From Deltaproteobacteria bacterium RIFOXYA12_FULL_61_11 (GTDB lineage Bacteria > Bdellovibrionota_F > JAHFAK01 > YA12-FULL-61-11), in the NCBI GenBank assembly GCA_001799195.1, contig MGSU01000176.1, positions 1-9,196 of the forward strand: 9,196 bases of DNA, in the 5' to 3' direction. The notes under the pieces were generated by a model. It was not told the DNA's origin. It did not search any database and saw only the letters and a list, made by a program, of their open reading frames with translations. The position numbers were made by a program, and so were the translations under genes. Of this stretch, positions 2,705-9,119 are shown in pieces (position 1 is the first letter of the stretch; every line of letters starts with the position of its first letter).

Positions 2705-4492
2705 GTGCCCACGGGAATTGGAGCAGGAAACGCGAAGGAACTGGGACGACACTTCGCCCTGATCGGCGTGCTGCTCGCATTGACCTTCGCCGCCTCACTC
2801 GACCACGAATTCGTCAACTGGGATGACGATTATTACCTCCATCGCAACAGCAGGGTGAAGGAACTGTCCCTCGGCCACGTCCTCTCCCTGTTCAACCCAA
2901 ACTCCATTCACGAAGGGAAGACCTTCATCGAGTTCCTCCCCCTGCGCGACCTGACCTGGGCCATCGATTTCGCGGCCTGGGCCTATAACCCGGTCGGGTA
3001 CCACCTCGGCAACGTGGTGCTGCACTACCTCACCTGCCTGGCCTTGTACCTCCTCGTGGTCGTGGCCTTCTCCTCGCGCCGACAGGCCCTGCTCGCCGCC
3101 ATGCTTTTCGCTGTCCTCCCCTGCCACGTCGAATCCGTCGCCTGGATAGCGTGCCGCAAGGACCCACTCTTCCTCTTCCTGGAACTGCTCTCCATGGTCG
3201 CCCTACTGCAGTACCTCGACGGCGCATCCAGGAGCAGGCTCTGGCTCTCGGCCTTGTTCCTCGCTTTATCGCTCTGGTCCAAGTCTCTGGCCCTGACCAT
3301 GCCGGCCCTTGCCGTCCTGCTCCTCCTCGCCGCCCGGCCCGCGCTGCCGTGGCGACGGTACCTTGCCCTGCTGCCTCACCTCGTCGTCGTTGTCATCTTC
3401 GCGCACCAGTTCCTCGGTACCGGTGTGGCCAAGGATCTCGTGCAGCCCGATTACGGCGGTCTGCGCGCCTTGCCCAAGGTGTTTCTGGCCTACCTGCAGG
3501 TTCAGATCCTGCCCTTCCCGCTCTGCCAACGGTACGACCTTGCAATACCCCCGGGTTGGCTCCAACTCGAGGTTCTGCTACCCGCAGCGATCCTCCTCGT
3601 ACTCGTCCTCCTCACTGTCAAGGTGAGGCTGGCCCACTTCGCGCTGGCTTGGACCTTCGTCGCCCTGGTCCCGGTGCTCAATTTCGTGCCGTTCCCTATC
3701 CTGATGGCCGAGCGGTACCTCTACCTGCCTTCGGTCGGCCCTGTGCTGTTCGCTTCCTGGTGGCTCGCGAAACGTCCCCCGGCATTCTCCGCTATCATCT
3801 TCCTGGTCTTCGCCGGGTTGAGCGCCTCGCACGCCGAGGTGTTCCAAAACAGCATCACCCTGTGGAGCGACGTTCTCTCGAAATACCCCCGCCTTGGAGT
3901 GGCTCATGCCAACCTCACCTCGGCCCTCTTCGAACGAGGGCAAGAGCGGGAAGCCCTCGCAGCAGCAACAGCGGGCCTCGAGGTAGAACCGGACAACGCC
4001 ATGCTGCACCTCGTCCTCGGGCACCATCACCGCCGCGCCGGCCGGTACGACCAGGCTCTCGCCTCCTATGAACGTGCCGGGCATGCACAGCAGCTCGCTT
4101 CCAAGCTCCACGCCGGACGGGGCACCACCTTCTTGCTCCAGGGACGTCTGACGGAGGCCCGGGAGGCCCTGCTTTCGGCTCTTTCCACCCCGAGCCACGA
4201 CCACTACCGCGCCGACCCGACGACCTACCACAACCTGGCCCTGGTCGAGGTCAGGCTCGGACACCGCGAAGGCTTCAAGCGAGCCGTGACCGGCCTCCTC
4301 GAGACCCTCGACTTCTCGCGGCCCGAGCAGGTGATCGAAGCCGCGCATCTCCTGGCCGCGACCGGCAGGGCGACCGAGGGTCTGGCCCTCTTGGAACGCG
4401 GCAGGACCGCTTTCTCGGATCTCCGATACGACGAGGCCCTTGTCCTGTTCCGAAACCGGCTTGGTCTCGACCCCCAGGACCAAAGACCATGA
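2705..4492 (+). CDS. TMTC-like multi-span membrane glycosyltransferase with TPR domain
   Basis: The 595-residue protein combines a hydrophobic GT-C-type membrane part with a soluble TPR tail, the layout of TMTC-like O-mannosyltransferases and their bacterial relatives. After a first membrane helix (about 17-32) comes F-V-N-W-D-D-D (37-42), where family members carry a catalytic Asp pair in the first extracytoplasmic loop. Further family landmarks are N-P-x-G-Y-H-L-x-N (95-103), H-V-E-S-V-A-W-x-x-x-R-K-D (141-153) and E-R-Y-L-Y-L-P (336-342). Several more helices fill residues about 100-375. TPR-like helical repeats follow (about 385-575), likely periplasmic. It should use a lipid-linked sugar to glycosylate an exported protein; the acceptor is unknown. 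The start is GTG with a weak CGGAG 12 bases upstream; no nearer ATG exists, so the start is the least certain part. Its stop overlaps the mnmA start as ATGA. Confidence 0.82.
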   Translation: MPTGIGAGNAKELGRHFALIGVLLALTFAASLDHEFVNWDDDYYLHRNSRVKELSLGHVLSLFNPNSIHEGKTFIEFLPLRDLTWAIDFAAWAYNPVGYHLGNVVLHYLTCLALYLLVVVAFSSRRQALLAAMLFAVLPCHVESVAWIACRKDPLFLFLELLSMVALLQYLDGASRSRLWLSALFLALSLWSKSLALTMPALAVLLLLAARPALPWRRYLALLPHLVVVVIFAHQFLGTGVAKDLVQPDYGGLRALPKVFLAYLQVQILPFPLCQRYDLAIPPGWLQLEVLLPAAILLVLVLLTVKVRLAHFALAWTFVALVPVLNFVPFPILMAERYLYLPSVGPVLFASWWLAKRPPAFSAIIFLVFAGLSASHAEVFQNSITLWSDVLSKYPRLGVAHANLTSALFERGQEREALAAATAGLEVEPDNAMLHLVLGHHHRRAGRYDQALASYERAGHAQQLASKLHAGRGTTFLLQGRLTEAREALLSALSTPSHDHYRADPTTYHNLALVEVRLGHREGFKRAVTGLLETLDFSRPEQVIEAAHLLAATGRATEGLALLERGRTAFSDLRYDEALVLFRNRLGLDPQDQRP

Positions 4493-5589
4493 ACAAAGAC
4501 CTCGCGACACTGCCCCAATCGATCAGCCGCCTGCGAGGAGCTCGCCTCGGCGTCGCCATGAGCGGTGGAGTGGACAGCAGCGTGGCCGCCGCGCTCCTCG
4601 TCGAAGCCGGCCTCGAGGTCCTCGGCCTGACCATGAAGCTCCTCCCCGCGGACAGCGCCCCCCCCTCGGACCACCTCGCCTCGGCGGCCGAGGTCGCACG
4701 TTCGCTCGGCATCGAACATCATGTCCTCGACCTGCATGAGGTTTTCTCTCGCGAGGTGCTCGACCCGTTCCTTTGCTCCTACCTGGCGGGCACGACTCCC
4801 AATCCCTGCGCCCTGTGCAATCCCAGGATCAAGTTCGGTGCGCTCTTGACGCACGCTCGAAACCTCGGTTGCCTTGGCCTGGCCACGGGGCATTACGTGC
4901 GCAAACTGGAACATAACGGACGGTACTATCTCGGCGCTCCGGTCGACCGGGGTAAGGACCAGACCTATTTCCTCTTCCTGCTCGAACAGACCGCGCTCGC
5001 CAGGGCCTATTTCCCCCTCGAGGGGATTTCCAAGACCGAGGTCCGCGCCCTGGCGGCGGCCCGCAACTTACCCGTCGCCGGACGACCGGAGAGCCAGGAC
5101 CTCTGTTTCGTCCCCAAAGGCAGATATCCCGAGTTCGTCGAACAGCACCGTGCCCCCCCTCCACCGGGTCCTATCCTCGACCTCGACGGCACCGTGCTGG
5201 GTCACCATCGCGGCCTGCATCGGTACACCTTGGGACAACGCCACAGCCTGGGCCTATCCTCTCCCCGTCCACTCTACGTCGTTGCCCTCGATCCCGGCAG
5301 GAACGCCGTACGGGTAGGTCCCGAGGCCGCGCTCTACAGCGACCGACTCCGCTGTGAGCGTCTGTACCCCATGAAGGAAACCGACCTCGACGGCAGGACC
5401 TTCCTGGTCAAGGTGCGCTCCACGGCACGTCCCGTGACCGGAACGGTGACCCTGACCAACGAGGGGGCAGAAATACGCTTCGAGCAACCCCAGCGCGGCT
5501 TGACCCCCGGCCAAGCGGCGGTGCTCTACGACGACGAGGGCGGCGTGGTCGCCGGCGGCTGGATCCGCGAGGTCGGTGCGTTTACTTGA
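4489..5589 (+). CDS. mnmA: tRNA-specific 2-thiouridylase MnmA
   Basis: MnmA makes 2-thiouridine at wobble position U34 of tRNA for Lys, Glu and Gln in the cytoplasm, activating the base with ATP and receiving sulfur from a relay. The 366-residue length is normal. Residues 24-31 (MSGGVDSS) are the PP-loop that binds ATP. Cys110 in NPCALCN and Cys206 in ESQDLCF correspond to the two catalytic cysteines (Cys102 and Cys199 of the E. coli enzyme). The tRNA-contacting T-x-G-H-Y (133-136 region) and the C-terminal G-x-T-P-G-Q-A-A-V-x-Y segment with GGGW-like AGGW (355-358) are present. The position three before Cys110 is also Cys (Cys107), where E. coli has Asp, giving a CxxC form. The start overlaps the TMTC gene by ATGA, implying coupled translation. 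The last 8 bases overlap the end of the convergent flagellin-like gene. Confidence 0.96.
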   Translation: MNKDLATLPQSISRLRGARLGVAMSGGVDSSVAAALLVEAGLEVLGLTMKLLPADSAPPSDHLASAAEVARSLGIEHHVLDLHEVFSREVLDPFLCSYLAGTTPNPCALCNPRIKFGALLTHARNLGCLGLATGHYVRKLEHNGRYYLGAPVDRGKDQTYFLFLLEQTALARAYFPLEGISKTEVRALAAARNLPVAGRPESQDLCFVPKGRYPEFVEQHRAPPPPGPILDLDGTVLGHHRGLHRYTLGQRHSLGLSSPRPLYVVALDPGRNAVRVGPEAALYSDRLRCERLYPMKETDLDGRTFLVKVRSTARPVTGTVTLTNEGAEIRFEQPQRGLTPGQAAVLYDDEGGVVAGGWIREVGAFT

Positions 5590-6397
5590 GCAGGGATTCC
5601 AACGAGGCGCGGAGGGTGTCGTTCTCGGTCTTGAGAGTCTTCATTGCGGCCTTGGTCTGGAGCTGCAACCTCGTCTGCATGGACACGGCCTCGGCATAAT
5701 CGAGATCCCGCATCTTCGATCGGGTCTCCTCGGCATGGACGAGTTGGTTCTCGACCGTGGTCAGGGCAGAGCCGAGCTGGTTGCTCTTGGCTCCGATCGC
5801 CGCCCGGGTGTTCATTACCTCGGATAGGGCGCTGTCCAATCCCTCGAGCGCGTTGGCCGCACCCTCCTGGGTCGAGAGGTCGAGACTGGACACCCCGAGG
5901 GCCGAGGTCCGCAGGTCCATGCTCGGCAGGGCAATGTGCTGGTTCTCGCCCACGGCGACCGTGGTCGAGCCGCTGCCGAGGCCCTGACCGTTCAAGAGAG
6001 GTTGACCGTTGAAGCTGGTCTGGCTGGAAATGCGGTCGAGTTCCTCGTTCAGCGCTTGGAACTCCACGTTCAAGGTGTTCCGATCGCGATCGGAGAGGAC
6101 TCCGTTGGAGGCCTGGAGGGCCAATTCGCGTTGCCGCTGCAAAATGTTGCCGACCTCCGAGGCTGCGCCGTCGGCGGTGTTGAGCACGGCCAAGCCGGAG
6201 CTGAGATTATCCCTGGCCTTGTTGTACTCGTTGATCTCGGTGGTGAAACCCTCGACCATCGCCATGACCGCGGCATCGTCCGAGGCGCGTTCGATGCGCT
6301 TACCGCTGGCCATCTTGCGACTGAGGTCGAGCAATTGGTTCCTGGTTTTTTCGAGATTGCCCAGGGCGGTGAGCGGCCCCTTGAGTTCCATCACCAT
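5582..6397 (-). CDS. Short divergent flagellin paralogue
   Basis: This 271-residue protein is a flagellin reduced to D0/D1 helices. The N-terminal half keeps the flagellin pattern: SGKRIERASDDAA (31-43), ILQRQRELALQASNG (85-99) and ISSQTSFNGQPLLNG (123-137). Residues about 138-180 are a short linker in place of D2/D3, and 183-234 form the returning D1 helix with TRSKMRDLDYAEA. The ends are unusual: the N-terminus lacks the INTN start, and the last 30 residues replace the normal Q-A-G-x-x-x-L-A-Q-A-N core with a charged helix ending in LESLLK. It may be a minor filament subunit, a cap- or junction-type component, or a decaying copy. The ATG at 6397 has GGGAGGT with a 6-base spacer; an upstream in-frame GTG at 6436 lacks this. 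It lies 93 bases after tatD on the same strand. I found no convincing sigma-54 or sigma-28 site before it. Confidence 0.85.
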   Translation of the reverse strand: MVMELKGPLTALGNLEKTRNQLLDLSRKMASGKRIERASDDAAVMAMVEGFTTEINEYNKARDNLSSGLAVLNTADGAASEVGNILQRQRELALQASNGVLSDRDRNTLNVEFQALNEELDRISSQTSFNGQPLLNGQGLGSGSTTVAVGENQHIALPSMDLRTSALGVSSLDLSTQEGAANALEGLDSALSEVMNTRAAIGAKSNQLGSALTTVENQLVHAEETRSKMRDLDYAEAVSMQTRLQLQTKAAMKTLKTENDTLRASLESLLK

Positions 6398-6490
6398 GCC
6401 ACTACCTCCCTTATTCTCGGTGAGCGCCTTGCACACGGTCTTCCATCGGTCTCTTTCGGCATACTCGGCCTCTGCCTGAAGGAAATTCTT

Positions 6491-7297
6491 TCAACTCGTT
6501 CGATCTCTTGAATCGATACATTCCGGCGCGAGCCGGAAGAGGCGCTCGGCGCACGCGGTGGTGCTCACCGCGAGGACCTCGAGGGGAACCCCGCGCAACT
6601 CGGCCAACCGAGCAGCGGTATGGACGACGAAGGCCGGCTCGTTGCGCTTCCCCCGACAGGGGACCGGGGCCAGGTACGGGGCATCGCTCTCGACGAGCAA
6701 CCGTCCGTCCGGGACGTAGCGTGCAACCTCCTCGAGCCCACCCCCGCCCTTGAAGGTGACGACCCCGGCGAGGGAGAGACTCATCCCCAGGTCCAGGAAA
6801 CGCTTGGCCCAGGCCTTGTCACCGGTGTAGCAGTGCATCACCCCGAGCTCGTCGCGGACATGCGCCGCCAGCATGGCGTAGACCTCGTCGAAAGCGTCCC
6901 GGCAGTGGACCACCACCGGCAACCTCAGTTTCGCTGCCAGATCGAGCTGTGCGGCGAAGACCTCCCTCTGCACCGGACGAGGAGAGAGGTCGTGGTGGAA
7001 GTCGAGCCCGATCTCGCCGAGAGCCGAGCAGGCACCGCGCCGAAGGGCCTCAGCCAGGGTTCGTAGGGCCGGCTCATCCACCTTCGAGGCCTCGTGGGGA
7101 TGATAACCGAGGACCGGGGTAATGGCCTTGTGCCGCGAAGAGAGCGCCAGCACCGCGGCAAGGTCTTCCCCGGTATTCGCCGAGTTGAGACAGAGGACTC
7201 TGGCAACTCCTGCGGCCTTTGCCCGGGCGAGCAGCGCGGGAATTTCGGTTTCCGGAAAAGCCTCGGCACTGAGGTGACAGTGGCTATCGACGAGCAT
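6491..7297 (-). CDS. tatD: TatD family metal-dependent hydrolase (deoxyribonuclease)
   Basis: The 268-residue protein is a TatD-type TIM-barrel hydrolase of the amidohydrolase superfamily, cytoplasmic, associated with 3'-5' exonuclease activity on DNA and with DNA quality control. Numbered from the chosen start, it has the metal-binding D-S-H-C-H-L at the N-terminus (residues 4-9), then GYHPH, the bridging glutamate in GEIGLDFH, V-V-H-C-R-D, M-H-C-Y-T-G and the late L-V-E-S-D-A-P-Y-L-A-P motif, all in the usual order. I chose the ATG at 7297: it places the H-x-H motif right at the start as in the family, GGAG lies upstream, and a promoter at 7329-7357 would exclude the longer frame beginning at 7357. 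It is probably transcribed into the flagellin-like gene 93 bases downstream, although the functions are unrelated. The paralogue YcfH or YjjV cannot be distinguished here. Confidence 0.93.
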   Translation of the reverse strand: MLVDSHCHLSAEAFPETEIPALLARAKAAGVARVLCLNSANTGEDLAAVLALSSRHKAITPVLGYHPHEASKVDEPALRTLAEALRRGACSALGEIGLDFHHDLSPRPVQREVFAAQLDLAAKLRLPVVVHCRDAFDEVYAMLAAHVRDELGVMHCYTGDKAWAKRFLDLGMSLSLAGVVTFKGGGGLEEVARYVPDGRLLVESDAPYLAPVPCRGKRNEPAFVVHTAARLAELRGVPLEVLAVSTTACAERLFRLAPECIDSRDRTS

Positions 7298-7593: not shown

Positions 7594-7610
7594 TTGGCAT
7601 TGGACTTGCG
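7594..7610 (+). promoter_or_regulatory. Sigma-54 (RpoN) promoter of the flagellin gene
   Basis: TTGGCATTGGACTTGCG has the -24 GG (7596-7597) and -12 GC (7608-7609) exactly 10 bases apart and matches the TGGCAY-N5-TTGC consensus. Transcription would start near 7621, about 53 bases before the flagellin ATG. RpoN control means a bacterial enhancer-binding protein and ATP hydrolysis are needed, as in late flagellar gene classes of many flagellated bacteria. Confidence 0.88.
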
Positions 7611-7673: not shown

Positions 7674-9119
7674 ATGGGTCTGCGCATTAACACCAACGTC
7701 GCGGCGCTCAACGCGCAACGGAACCTGTACAACACTACCAGTGGCCTCAATTCCACCTTGGAGCGCCTCAGCACCGGTCTGCGCATCAACCGGGCCGCCG
7801 ATGACGCCGCGGGCATGGCCATCAGCGAAGGCCTGACCTCGCAACTCCGAGGGCTCAAACAGGTGGTGAGGAACACCGAGGACGCCATCTCCATGGTGTC
7901 CACGGCCGAGAGTGCCATTGCCGAACAGGTGGCGATCTCGCAGCGCATGCGCGAGTTGTCGGTGCAAGCGGCCAACGGCGCCATCAGCGACTACGATCGG
8001 GCCAATATCCAGAAAGAGGTCGACCAACTCCTGGCCGAGTTCGACCGCATTGCCACCCAAACCTCCTTCAACGGCGTGGCCCTGCTCAACGGACAGTTCG
8101 GGACCAAGGACCTGCAGGTCGGGACCGAGAAAGGCCAGACCATCCGCCTGACCCTGGCCAGCTCGCGCATCAACGCCATCGGCGGCGTCGCCATCGGAGA
8201 CGGGGCGCAACGCGACGCCGTGGCCGGGGTCCTGACCGCCATCACCACCTTCGAGGTCAACGATATCTCCGTGACCGGCTTCACCTCGGACGGAGTCTCG
8301 GACGTCGAGGCCGCCAAGTCAGCCCTGGCCGTGGTCGCGGCCGTCAACGCCCTGTCCGGCAGCACCGGCGTCACCGCCACCAGCGAGTCCACGGTGTTCA
8401 CCGCAGCCCAGGCCTTCAGCGCGGCCTGCGCCAACTTCAACTACACCAACACTGCCGACTCCCTGGTCATCAATGGGGTCAGCATCACTGGCTCGGGTTC
8501 GACCATCTCCGACGCCATCGATGTCATCAACAACTTCTCCAACCAGACCGGCGTGCGCGCCACCAGCTCGGGCACTTCCATCGTGCTCGAAGCCCCGGAC
8601 GGGCGCAACATCCACCTCGAGTCCGACGCCTCGCTCACCGGCGTCAACAACATCGGCATCCTCTCCGCCGCCACCGTCGAGAAGGTCACGGCCGCGGCCG
8701 TGACCCTGACTTCGGACAACAAGTTCAAGCTCGAGGATGCGGGCGGCGGCACCACGCTCGCCTCGATCGGCATCACCTCGAACACGTATTCGATCGACGC
8801 CACGACGACGATCGACACGATCAGCCTGCTGTCCACCAGCTCGGCGGGCAACGCCATCGAGATCACGGACAACACCCTGCGCCAGCTCAACAACTTGCGT
8901 TCCAAGATCGGCGCCCTGCAGAACCGGCTGGAGAGCACGAGGCGCAACCTCTCGACCACCTACGAGAACCTGTCGGCGGCGCGTTCGCGCATCCTCGACG
9001 CGGACATCGCGGTCGAGACCGCAGAAATGACCAAGATGCAGATCTTGCAACAGGCAGGTCTTGCGGTGCTGGCCCAGGCCAACATGGCTCCTCAAGCGGT
9101 GCTCTCGTTGTTGCAATGA
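7674..9119 (+). CDS. fliC: Flagellin, filament subunit
   Basis: The 481-residue protein is a full flagellin, exported by the flagellar type III apparatus and polymerised into the filament. The N-terminal D0/D1 part (1-170) has GLRINTNVAALNAQRNL, TGLRINRAADDAAGMAISEG and QRMRELSVQAANG. The C-terminal D1/D0 part (about 395-481) has SRILDADIAVETAEMTKMQI and ends in NMAPQAVLSLLQ. The middle (about 175-390) is a variable surface domain rich in Thr, Ser, Ala and Val. Two segments in it (about 195-245 and 264-306) both read as I-N-[DG]-[IV]-S-[IV]-T-G, then a V-N or I-N helix, then TGV-x-A-T-S, like Flagellin_IN motifs. A single Cys252 is unusual for flagellins. The ATG at 7674 has GGAGGG 7 bases upstream; the in-frame start at 7572 lies before the sigma-54 promoter and is excluded. 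No signal peptide is present, as expected. Confidence 0.97.
   Translation: MGLRINTNVAALNAQRNLYNTTSGLNSTLERLSTGLRINRAADDAAGMAISEGLTSQLRGLKQVVRNTEDAISMVSTAESAIAEQVAISQRMRELSVQAANGAISDYDRANIQKEVDQLLAEFDRIATQTSFNGVALLNGQFGTKDLQVGTEKGQTIRLTLASSRINAIGGVAIGDGAQRDAVAGVLTAITTFEVNDISVTGFTSDGVSDVEAAKSALAVVAAVNALSGSTGVTATSESTVFTAAQAFSAACANFNYTNTADSLVINGVSITGSGSTISDAIDVINNFSNQTGVRATSSGTSIVLEAPDGRNIHLESDASLTGVNNIGILSAATVEKVTAAAVTLTSDNKFKLEDAGGGTTLASIGITSNTYSIDATTTIDTISLLSTSSAGNAIEITDNTLRQLNNLRSKIGALQNRLESTRRNLSTTYENLSAARSRILDADIAVETAEMTKMQILQQAGLAVLAQANMAPQAVLSLLQ

Follow-up and report, generated by a model that had tools for sequence, protein, structure and literature searches.

The window spans contig C176 entirely (9196 bases), in a draft genome of 4.64 Mb that is 87% complete, and carries a short flagellin that has kept the D1 bundle of the family and lost flagellin-type D0 helices at both ends. 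As judged from its sequence, the protein is a flagellin paralogue and is neither a FlgL or FlgK protein nor the wreck of a gene. We tentatively favour for it a role outside the filament, comparable to that of FlaC or possibly to that of HP1076. One other genome of the phylum was available for comparison.

An earlier note on this DNA had described a mini-flagellin with D1 motifs, and this description was borne out by both Pfam flagellin domains, Flagellin_N over residues 10-138 (1.4e-32, 113.1 bits for a cut-off of 26.6) and Flagellin_C over residues 185-257 (3.9e-10, 40.3 bits for a cut-off of 23), as well as by three D1 motifs present in alignments (SGKRIxRASDDAA, QRxRELALQASNG and FNGxxLLNG). 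The D0 domain makes the core of the flagellar filament. In the short flagellin the INTN motif is missing, the protein starting with MVMELKGPLTALGN where the window's own FliC starts with MGLRINTNVAALNA, and at the C-terminal end a charged helix, LQTKAAMKTLKTENDTLRASLESLLK, stands in place of the QAG..LAQAN helix. Both changes had been pointed out in the earlier note, and the scores of the two ends agree with it.

The D0 ends were scored against HMM profiles built leaving the scored protein out (leave-one-out), with typical flagellins and FlgL proteins collected from other genomes as the comparison set. Against the end profiles of typical flagellins, the short flagellin reached 3.1 bits at the N-terminal and 1.8 bits at the C-terminal end, whereas most typical flagellins gave 34-69 and 38-72 bits, respectively, and the weakest two, Fla_L013 and Fla_L016, gave 22-26 and 18-23 bits; the size of this gap depends on the set, since the typical flagellins were hand-chosen and odd-looking proteins were removed before the profiles were built. 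The last 29 residues hold 9 charges, versus 0-3 in 28 typical flagellins, and the tail is a full-length amphipathic helix (moment of 1.00 versus a mean of 0.78). At the level of sequence, the change in D0 is far beyond ordinary variation among flagellins.

Table 1. Position and strand of the features of the window, with the evidence for each.
Feature	Position	Strand	Evidence or remark
mnmA	4489..5589	+	Pfam tRNA_Me_trans 9e-61
Short flagellin paralogue, both D0 ends rewritten	5582..6397	-	271 aa; coordinates include the stop codon
C-terminal D0 segment, residues 235-271, charged helix LQTKAAMKTLKTENDTLRASLESLLK	5585..5695	-	1.8 bits with flagellin profile; 9 charges; 13.7 bits with tail profile of the orphan family
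C-terminal D1 helix, about residues 185-234	5696..5845	-	Pfam Flagellin_C
N-terminal D1 helices, residues 32-138, conserved, flagellin-like	5984..6304	-	Pfam Flagellin_N; predicted fold Z 18-19
N-terminal D0 segment (residues 1-31), INTN missing	6305..6397	-	3.1 bits with flagellin profile, 13.2 bits with FlgL profile; pLDDT about 35-55
Ribosome-binding site GGGAGG, 7 nt before ATG of the short flagellin	6405..6410	-	Direct reading
tatD	6491..7297	-	Pfam TatD_DNase 6.2e-72; start 7297 inferred from MLVDSHCHLS
Sigma-54 type site TGGCATTGGACTTGC before fliC	7595..7609	+	Exact match; no counterpart before the short flagellin
Ordinary fliC, 481 aa, internal comparison	7674..9119	+	Read from sequence and Pfam

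An AlphaFold model of the short flagellin, built from eight sequences only (mean pLDDT of 68.7), showed the flagellin D1 fold, with Z values of 18-19 to solved flagellins, and the tail was predicted as a single long helix (H177-270, tail pLDDT of 62-73). The D1 part of the model is usable; the central loop and the first 13 residues have a pLDDT under 50 and are unreliable, and for this reason no claim on D0 packing is made from it.

Phylogeny, which the earlier note had proposed as a check, placed the protein with flagellins and not with FlgL: in a tree of 62 proteins, the two families were split with a support of 100/99 and the short flagellin, whose branch is long, stood on the flagellin side, a placement that was unchanged without the D0 columns. 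Flagellins were also its top matches among solved structures. The NCBIfam FlgL model TIGR02550 gave 111.7 bits, below its cut-off of 127.2, and the two ends scored 13.2 bits (N) and 0.7 bits (C) against the FlgL end profiles. FlgL, or a junction protein, as the family of the short flagellin was thus ruled out on the sub-cut-off TIGR02550 score, the C-terminal end, the position outside the FlgL clade and the existence of a separate FlgL in the genome. In addition, the short flagellins L056 (G050) and L061 (G192), both with degenerate starts and from two other genomes of different families, were found to group together (100/96).

The gene is free of internal stops, with a frame intact over 271 codons. 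It converges with mnmA, the final 8 nt of which overlap the flagellin 3' end, and it lies on the same strand as tatD, directly downstream of it after a gap of 93 nt. Both are on the strand opposite to fliC; the earlier note had likewise put the short gene on the opposite strand, after tatD. Pattern scans upstream of position 6397 detected neither a sigma-54 site nor a sigma-28-like motif, in line with the earlier remark that no flagellar promoter was visible, and no convincing sigma-70 promoter either; the short flagellin gene may be read together with tatD. The site before fliC is the only exact sigma-54 match in the window, one-mismatch matches arising by chance, and the second fliC of the genome (L025 near 12179) and fliD (L026 near 1113) have a common sigma-28-like motif, TTMAGTTTTTTCCC..TCCTTCCGATG, which suggests that the two flagellins of the genome are under two control routes, one of sigma-54 and the other of sigma-28-like type. 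Both typical fliC genes have an AGGGAGG-type motif in front of them, as does the short flagellin gene. With a GC3 of 0.84 and a codon-usage log-odds of 0.323, the latter is as host-like as its neighbours, and from its intact frame, good ribosome site and host codon usage it looks like a live, native and maintained gene.

The ordinary flagellar roles are covered in this genome by typical FliC copies and by FlgK and FlgL, whose genes adjoin each other on contig C112; FliS is encoded beside fliD on contig C19 (2742-3077). Fragments of the second typical flagellin were found at the end of C297 and at the start of C19, and perhaps represent one split gene. The same genome also encodes a 1075-aa protein (L024 1912-5139, G000:C17), residues 38-134 of which match Flagellin_N (2.9e-08); it does not have an ordinary flagellin start and is preceded by a 298-aa gene without a Pfam match. 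Two further proteins of the genome (L024 8254-9000 and L026 8223-9404) end in hydrophobic-plus-arginine tails, LLGLRRRHG and WSWRRRRG, which, judged by eye only, resemble sorting tails of the MYXO-CTERM type.

Relatives of the short flagellin were searched for in several collections. The only other available genome of the phylum yielded no flagellin, a contig scan of other genomes returned typical flagellins only, from gammaproteobacterial records, and no relative was recovered from the viral contigs searched. Plasmid matches, among those listed, were at most 36% identical, and the annotated ones were called flagellin. A joint-profile search of 386 genomes gave no further members clearly above typical flagellins, and the open-access literature no direct match for such proteins beyond FlaC and HP1076. 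A group made of L048, L049 and the window protein was considered and abandoned because L049 has an ordinary tail (35.4 bits) and was dropped.

Short flagellins with weak D0 ends recur in other genomes. Among 78 complete short flagellins from the retrieved loci, a sample biased towards relatives of the window protein, the tail falls below 5 bits on the typical profile in 15, ten of which are members of a single family. This orphan family (about 262 aa, one per genome) was found at 21 loci in the phylum of G119, and in 19 of them a STAS-domain gene lies directly upstream of the flagellin (L098 6717-7933 in G119; L101-L121). Over the whole gene, dN/dS among four close members is about 0.05-0.12, a sign of purifying selection, some pairs being close to saturation at synonymous sites. 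The D0 parts, too, show limited nonsynonymous change. A flagellin devoid of ordinary ends can therefore be a stable, selected gene.

The relation of the window protein to this family was examined on the tail and on the whole protein. Its last 29 residues scored 13.7 bits against the tail profile of the orphan family, a value reached by 0 of 5000 shuffles (best 9.2), versus -0.8 bits against flagellin tails and -3.0 bits against FlgL tails; the match is partly selected, because it was a search with the window protein's own C-terminal half that led to the family. The tail motif of the family, LQSxxAIKxFKxxxxxRxxVLxLL, is present in the window protein, and no other flagellin tail from outside the family exceeds 10.2 bits on its profile. 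A common origin, in which the window protein would belong to one cross-phylum orphan family of D0-rewritten flagellins with the STAS-linked genes, would fit any of the roles discussed below; it draws on this tail match and on the AU test, in which a single clade was neither supported nor rejected (p 0.319), but the whole protein scored 210.7 bits with typical flagellins versus 170.8 bits with the family, neither tree grouped the two, and the 386 genomes supplied no more members, so that we regard it as doubtful. The window protein was accordingly kept out of the STAS-linked family, of which it shares the tail and not the whole sequence, and no STAS homologue was found in the window.

As for function, the short flagellin would most likely not be a bulk subunit of the filament. 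Neither D0 segment has a flagellin sequence, and ordinary polymerisation is therefore unlikely. FliS grips the C-terminal D0 of flagellin (PMC7248283, PMC5466977), which makes the usual binding through the C-terminal helix doubtful; contacts between D1 and FliS could remain. The protein would be handled as a flagellar-type export substrate, since about residues 20-45, past the very start, still resemble flagellin, and after export it might be released, or kept at the surface of the cell or flagellum as a soluble or minor component. The maintenance of D0-degenerate flagellins elsewhere, at 21 single-copy loci, would add to the case for a non-filament paralogue. Such a role is the first in our ranking, and is followed in order by a minor structural subunit, a cytoplasmic regulator and a decaying duplicate.

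A minor structural subunit, of which a small number of copies would sit at the filament base or the hook-filament junction, for instance, with D0 altered for a special interface, appears unlikely. Incorporation into the structure is conceivable because the modelled tail is one long helix, and a leaning to FlgL is seen in the N-terminal end (13.2 bits), in the TIGR02550 score just below the cut-off and in an RDLDYAEAV stretch resembling FlgL. Against it are the C-terminal end, which scores 0.7 bits with FlgL, the trees, which put the protein with flagellins, the flgK and flgL genes present elsewhere in the genome, and the lack of the sigma-54 and sigma-28-like sites of the fliC and fliD genes. 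Of the 'junction-like' protein suggested in the earlier note, it is thus the FlgL-like leaning of the N-terminal end that stands, while the C-terminal end, the position on the flagellin side and the separate flgK-flgL pair speak against it. Placed next, and likewise improbable, is a cytoplasmic flagellin mimic whose D1 bundle would engage an export partner, such as FliS or FliW, and thereby adjust flagellin export or synthesis. Helicobacter pylori HP1076 provides an in vitro precedent: it has a D1-like fold, binds FliS, competes with flagellin for it and does not polymerise (PMC7248283). A FliS gene is present in the genome, and STAS, a domain type of partner-switch regulation, adjoins the other-phylum family in 19 of 21 loci; but the window has no STAS gene, its protein was not placed in the STAS-linked family, and loss of hp1076 leaves motility unaffected, the role of HP1076 being unknown (PMC7248283).

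A duplicate in decay, functionless after the loss of its ends, would account for the missing flagellin signature, for the absence of a flagellar promoter pattern and for the want of an orthologue in the one near-relative genome examined. It is nonetheless the least likely of the four: the frame is intact over 271 codons with the D1 motifs kept, the ribosome site is good, codon usage is as adapted as that of the neighbours, and the tail, a full-length amphipathic helix, matches that of a conserved family. We also consider it rather improbable, though a little less so, that D0-rewritten flagellins would form a class of non-filament regulators or soluble factors in distant phyla, one of them tied to STAS, with the tail of the window protein acting as a dedicated binding helix.

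Few parts of the flagellum are as conserved as the ends of flagellin, since these form the flagellar core and also hold the contacts for export and chaperone binding. A flagellin that has been maintained without ordinary ends thus offers a natural experiment on the regions that export, chaperone binding and assembly require. That such proteins recur, together with the existence of the conserved STAS-linked family, suggests that the reuse of flagellin for other tasks is commoner than the examples of FlaC and HP1076 show.

Compared with known systems, the protein resembles FliC/Hag (PF00669 and PF00700) in its D1 helices, domain order, short D0-D1 length and predicted fold, and differs by two D0 ends without the flagellin signature and by the charges of its tail. 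It approaches FlgL at the N-terminal end and in the near-cut-off TIGR02550 score, and departs from it at the C-terminal end, in the trees and in coexisting with a FlgL of its own genome. PDB entries 3K8V, 3K8W and 2ZBI, which we take to be p5, a cell-surface flagellin homologue of Sphingomonas sp. A1, have the flagellin fold (Z of 18.9 to the model); p5, which was compared by fold, is longer, with a larger central region. The STAS-linked family offers similar length, an intact D1, rewritten D0 ends and a matching charged tail, but has a STAS gene upstream where the window has other neighbours, and taken whole the window protein lies closer to typical flagellins. HP1076 likewise has a bundle similar to flagellin D1 and lacks an ordinary D0 for polymerisation, but it is of 171 aa, RpoN-dependent and known from its own lineage only, whereas the sequence of the window protein clearly identifies it as a flagellin homologue. 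Campylobacter jejuni FlaC is a D0-D1 flagellin which is secreted and absent from the filament (PMC5466977, PMC4863622). Like the window protein, for which a non-filament role is proposed, it is a short paralogue largely without D2-D3, found beside ordinary flagellins in one genome; the two are likened by architecture, and since FlaC keeps D0-D1 and binds FliS, the parallel is one of role and not of end sequence.
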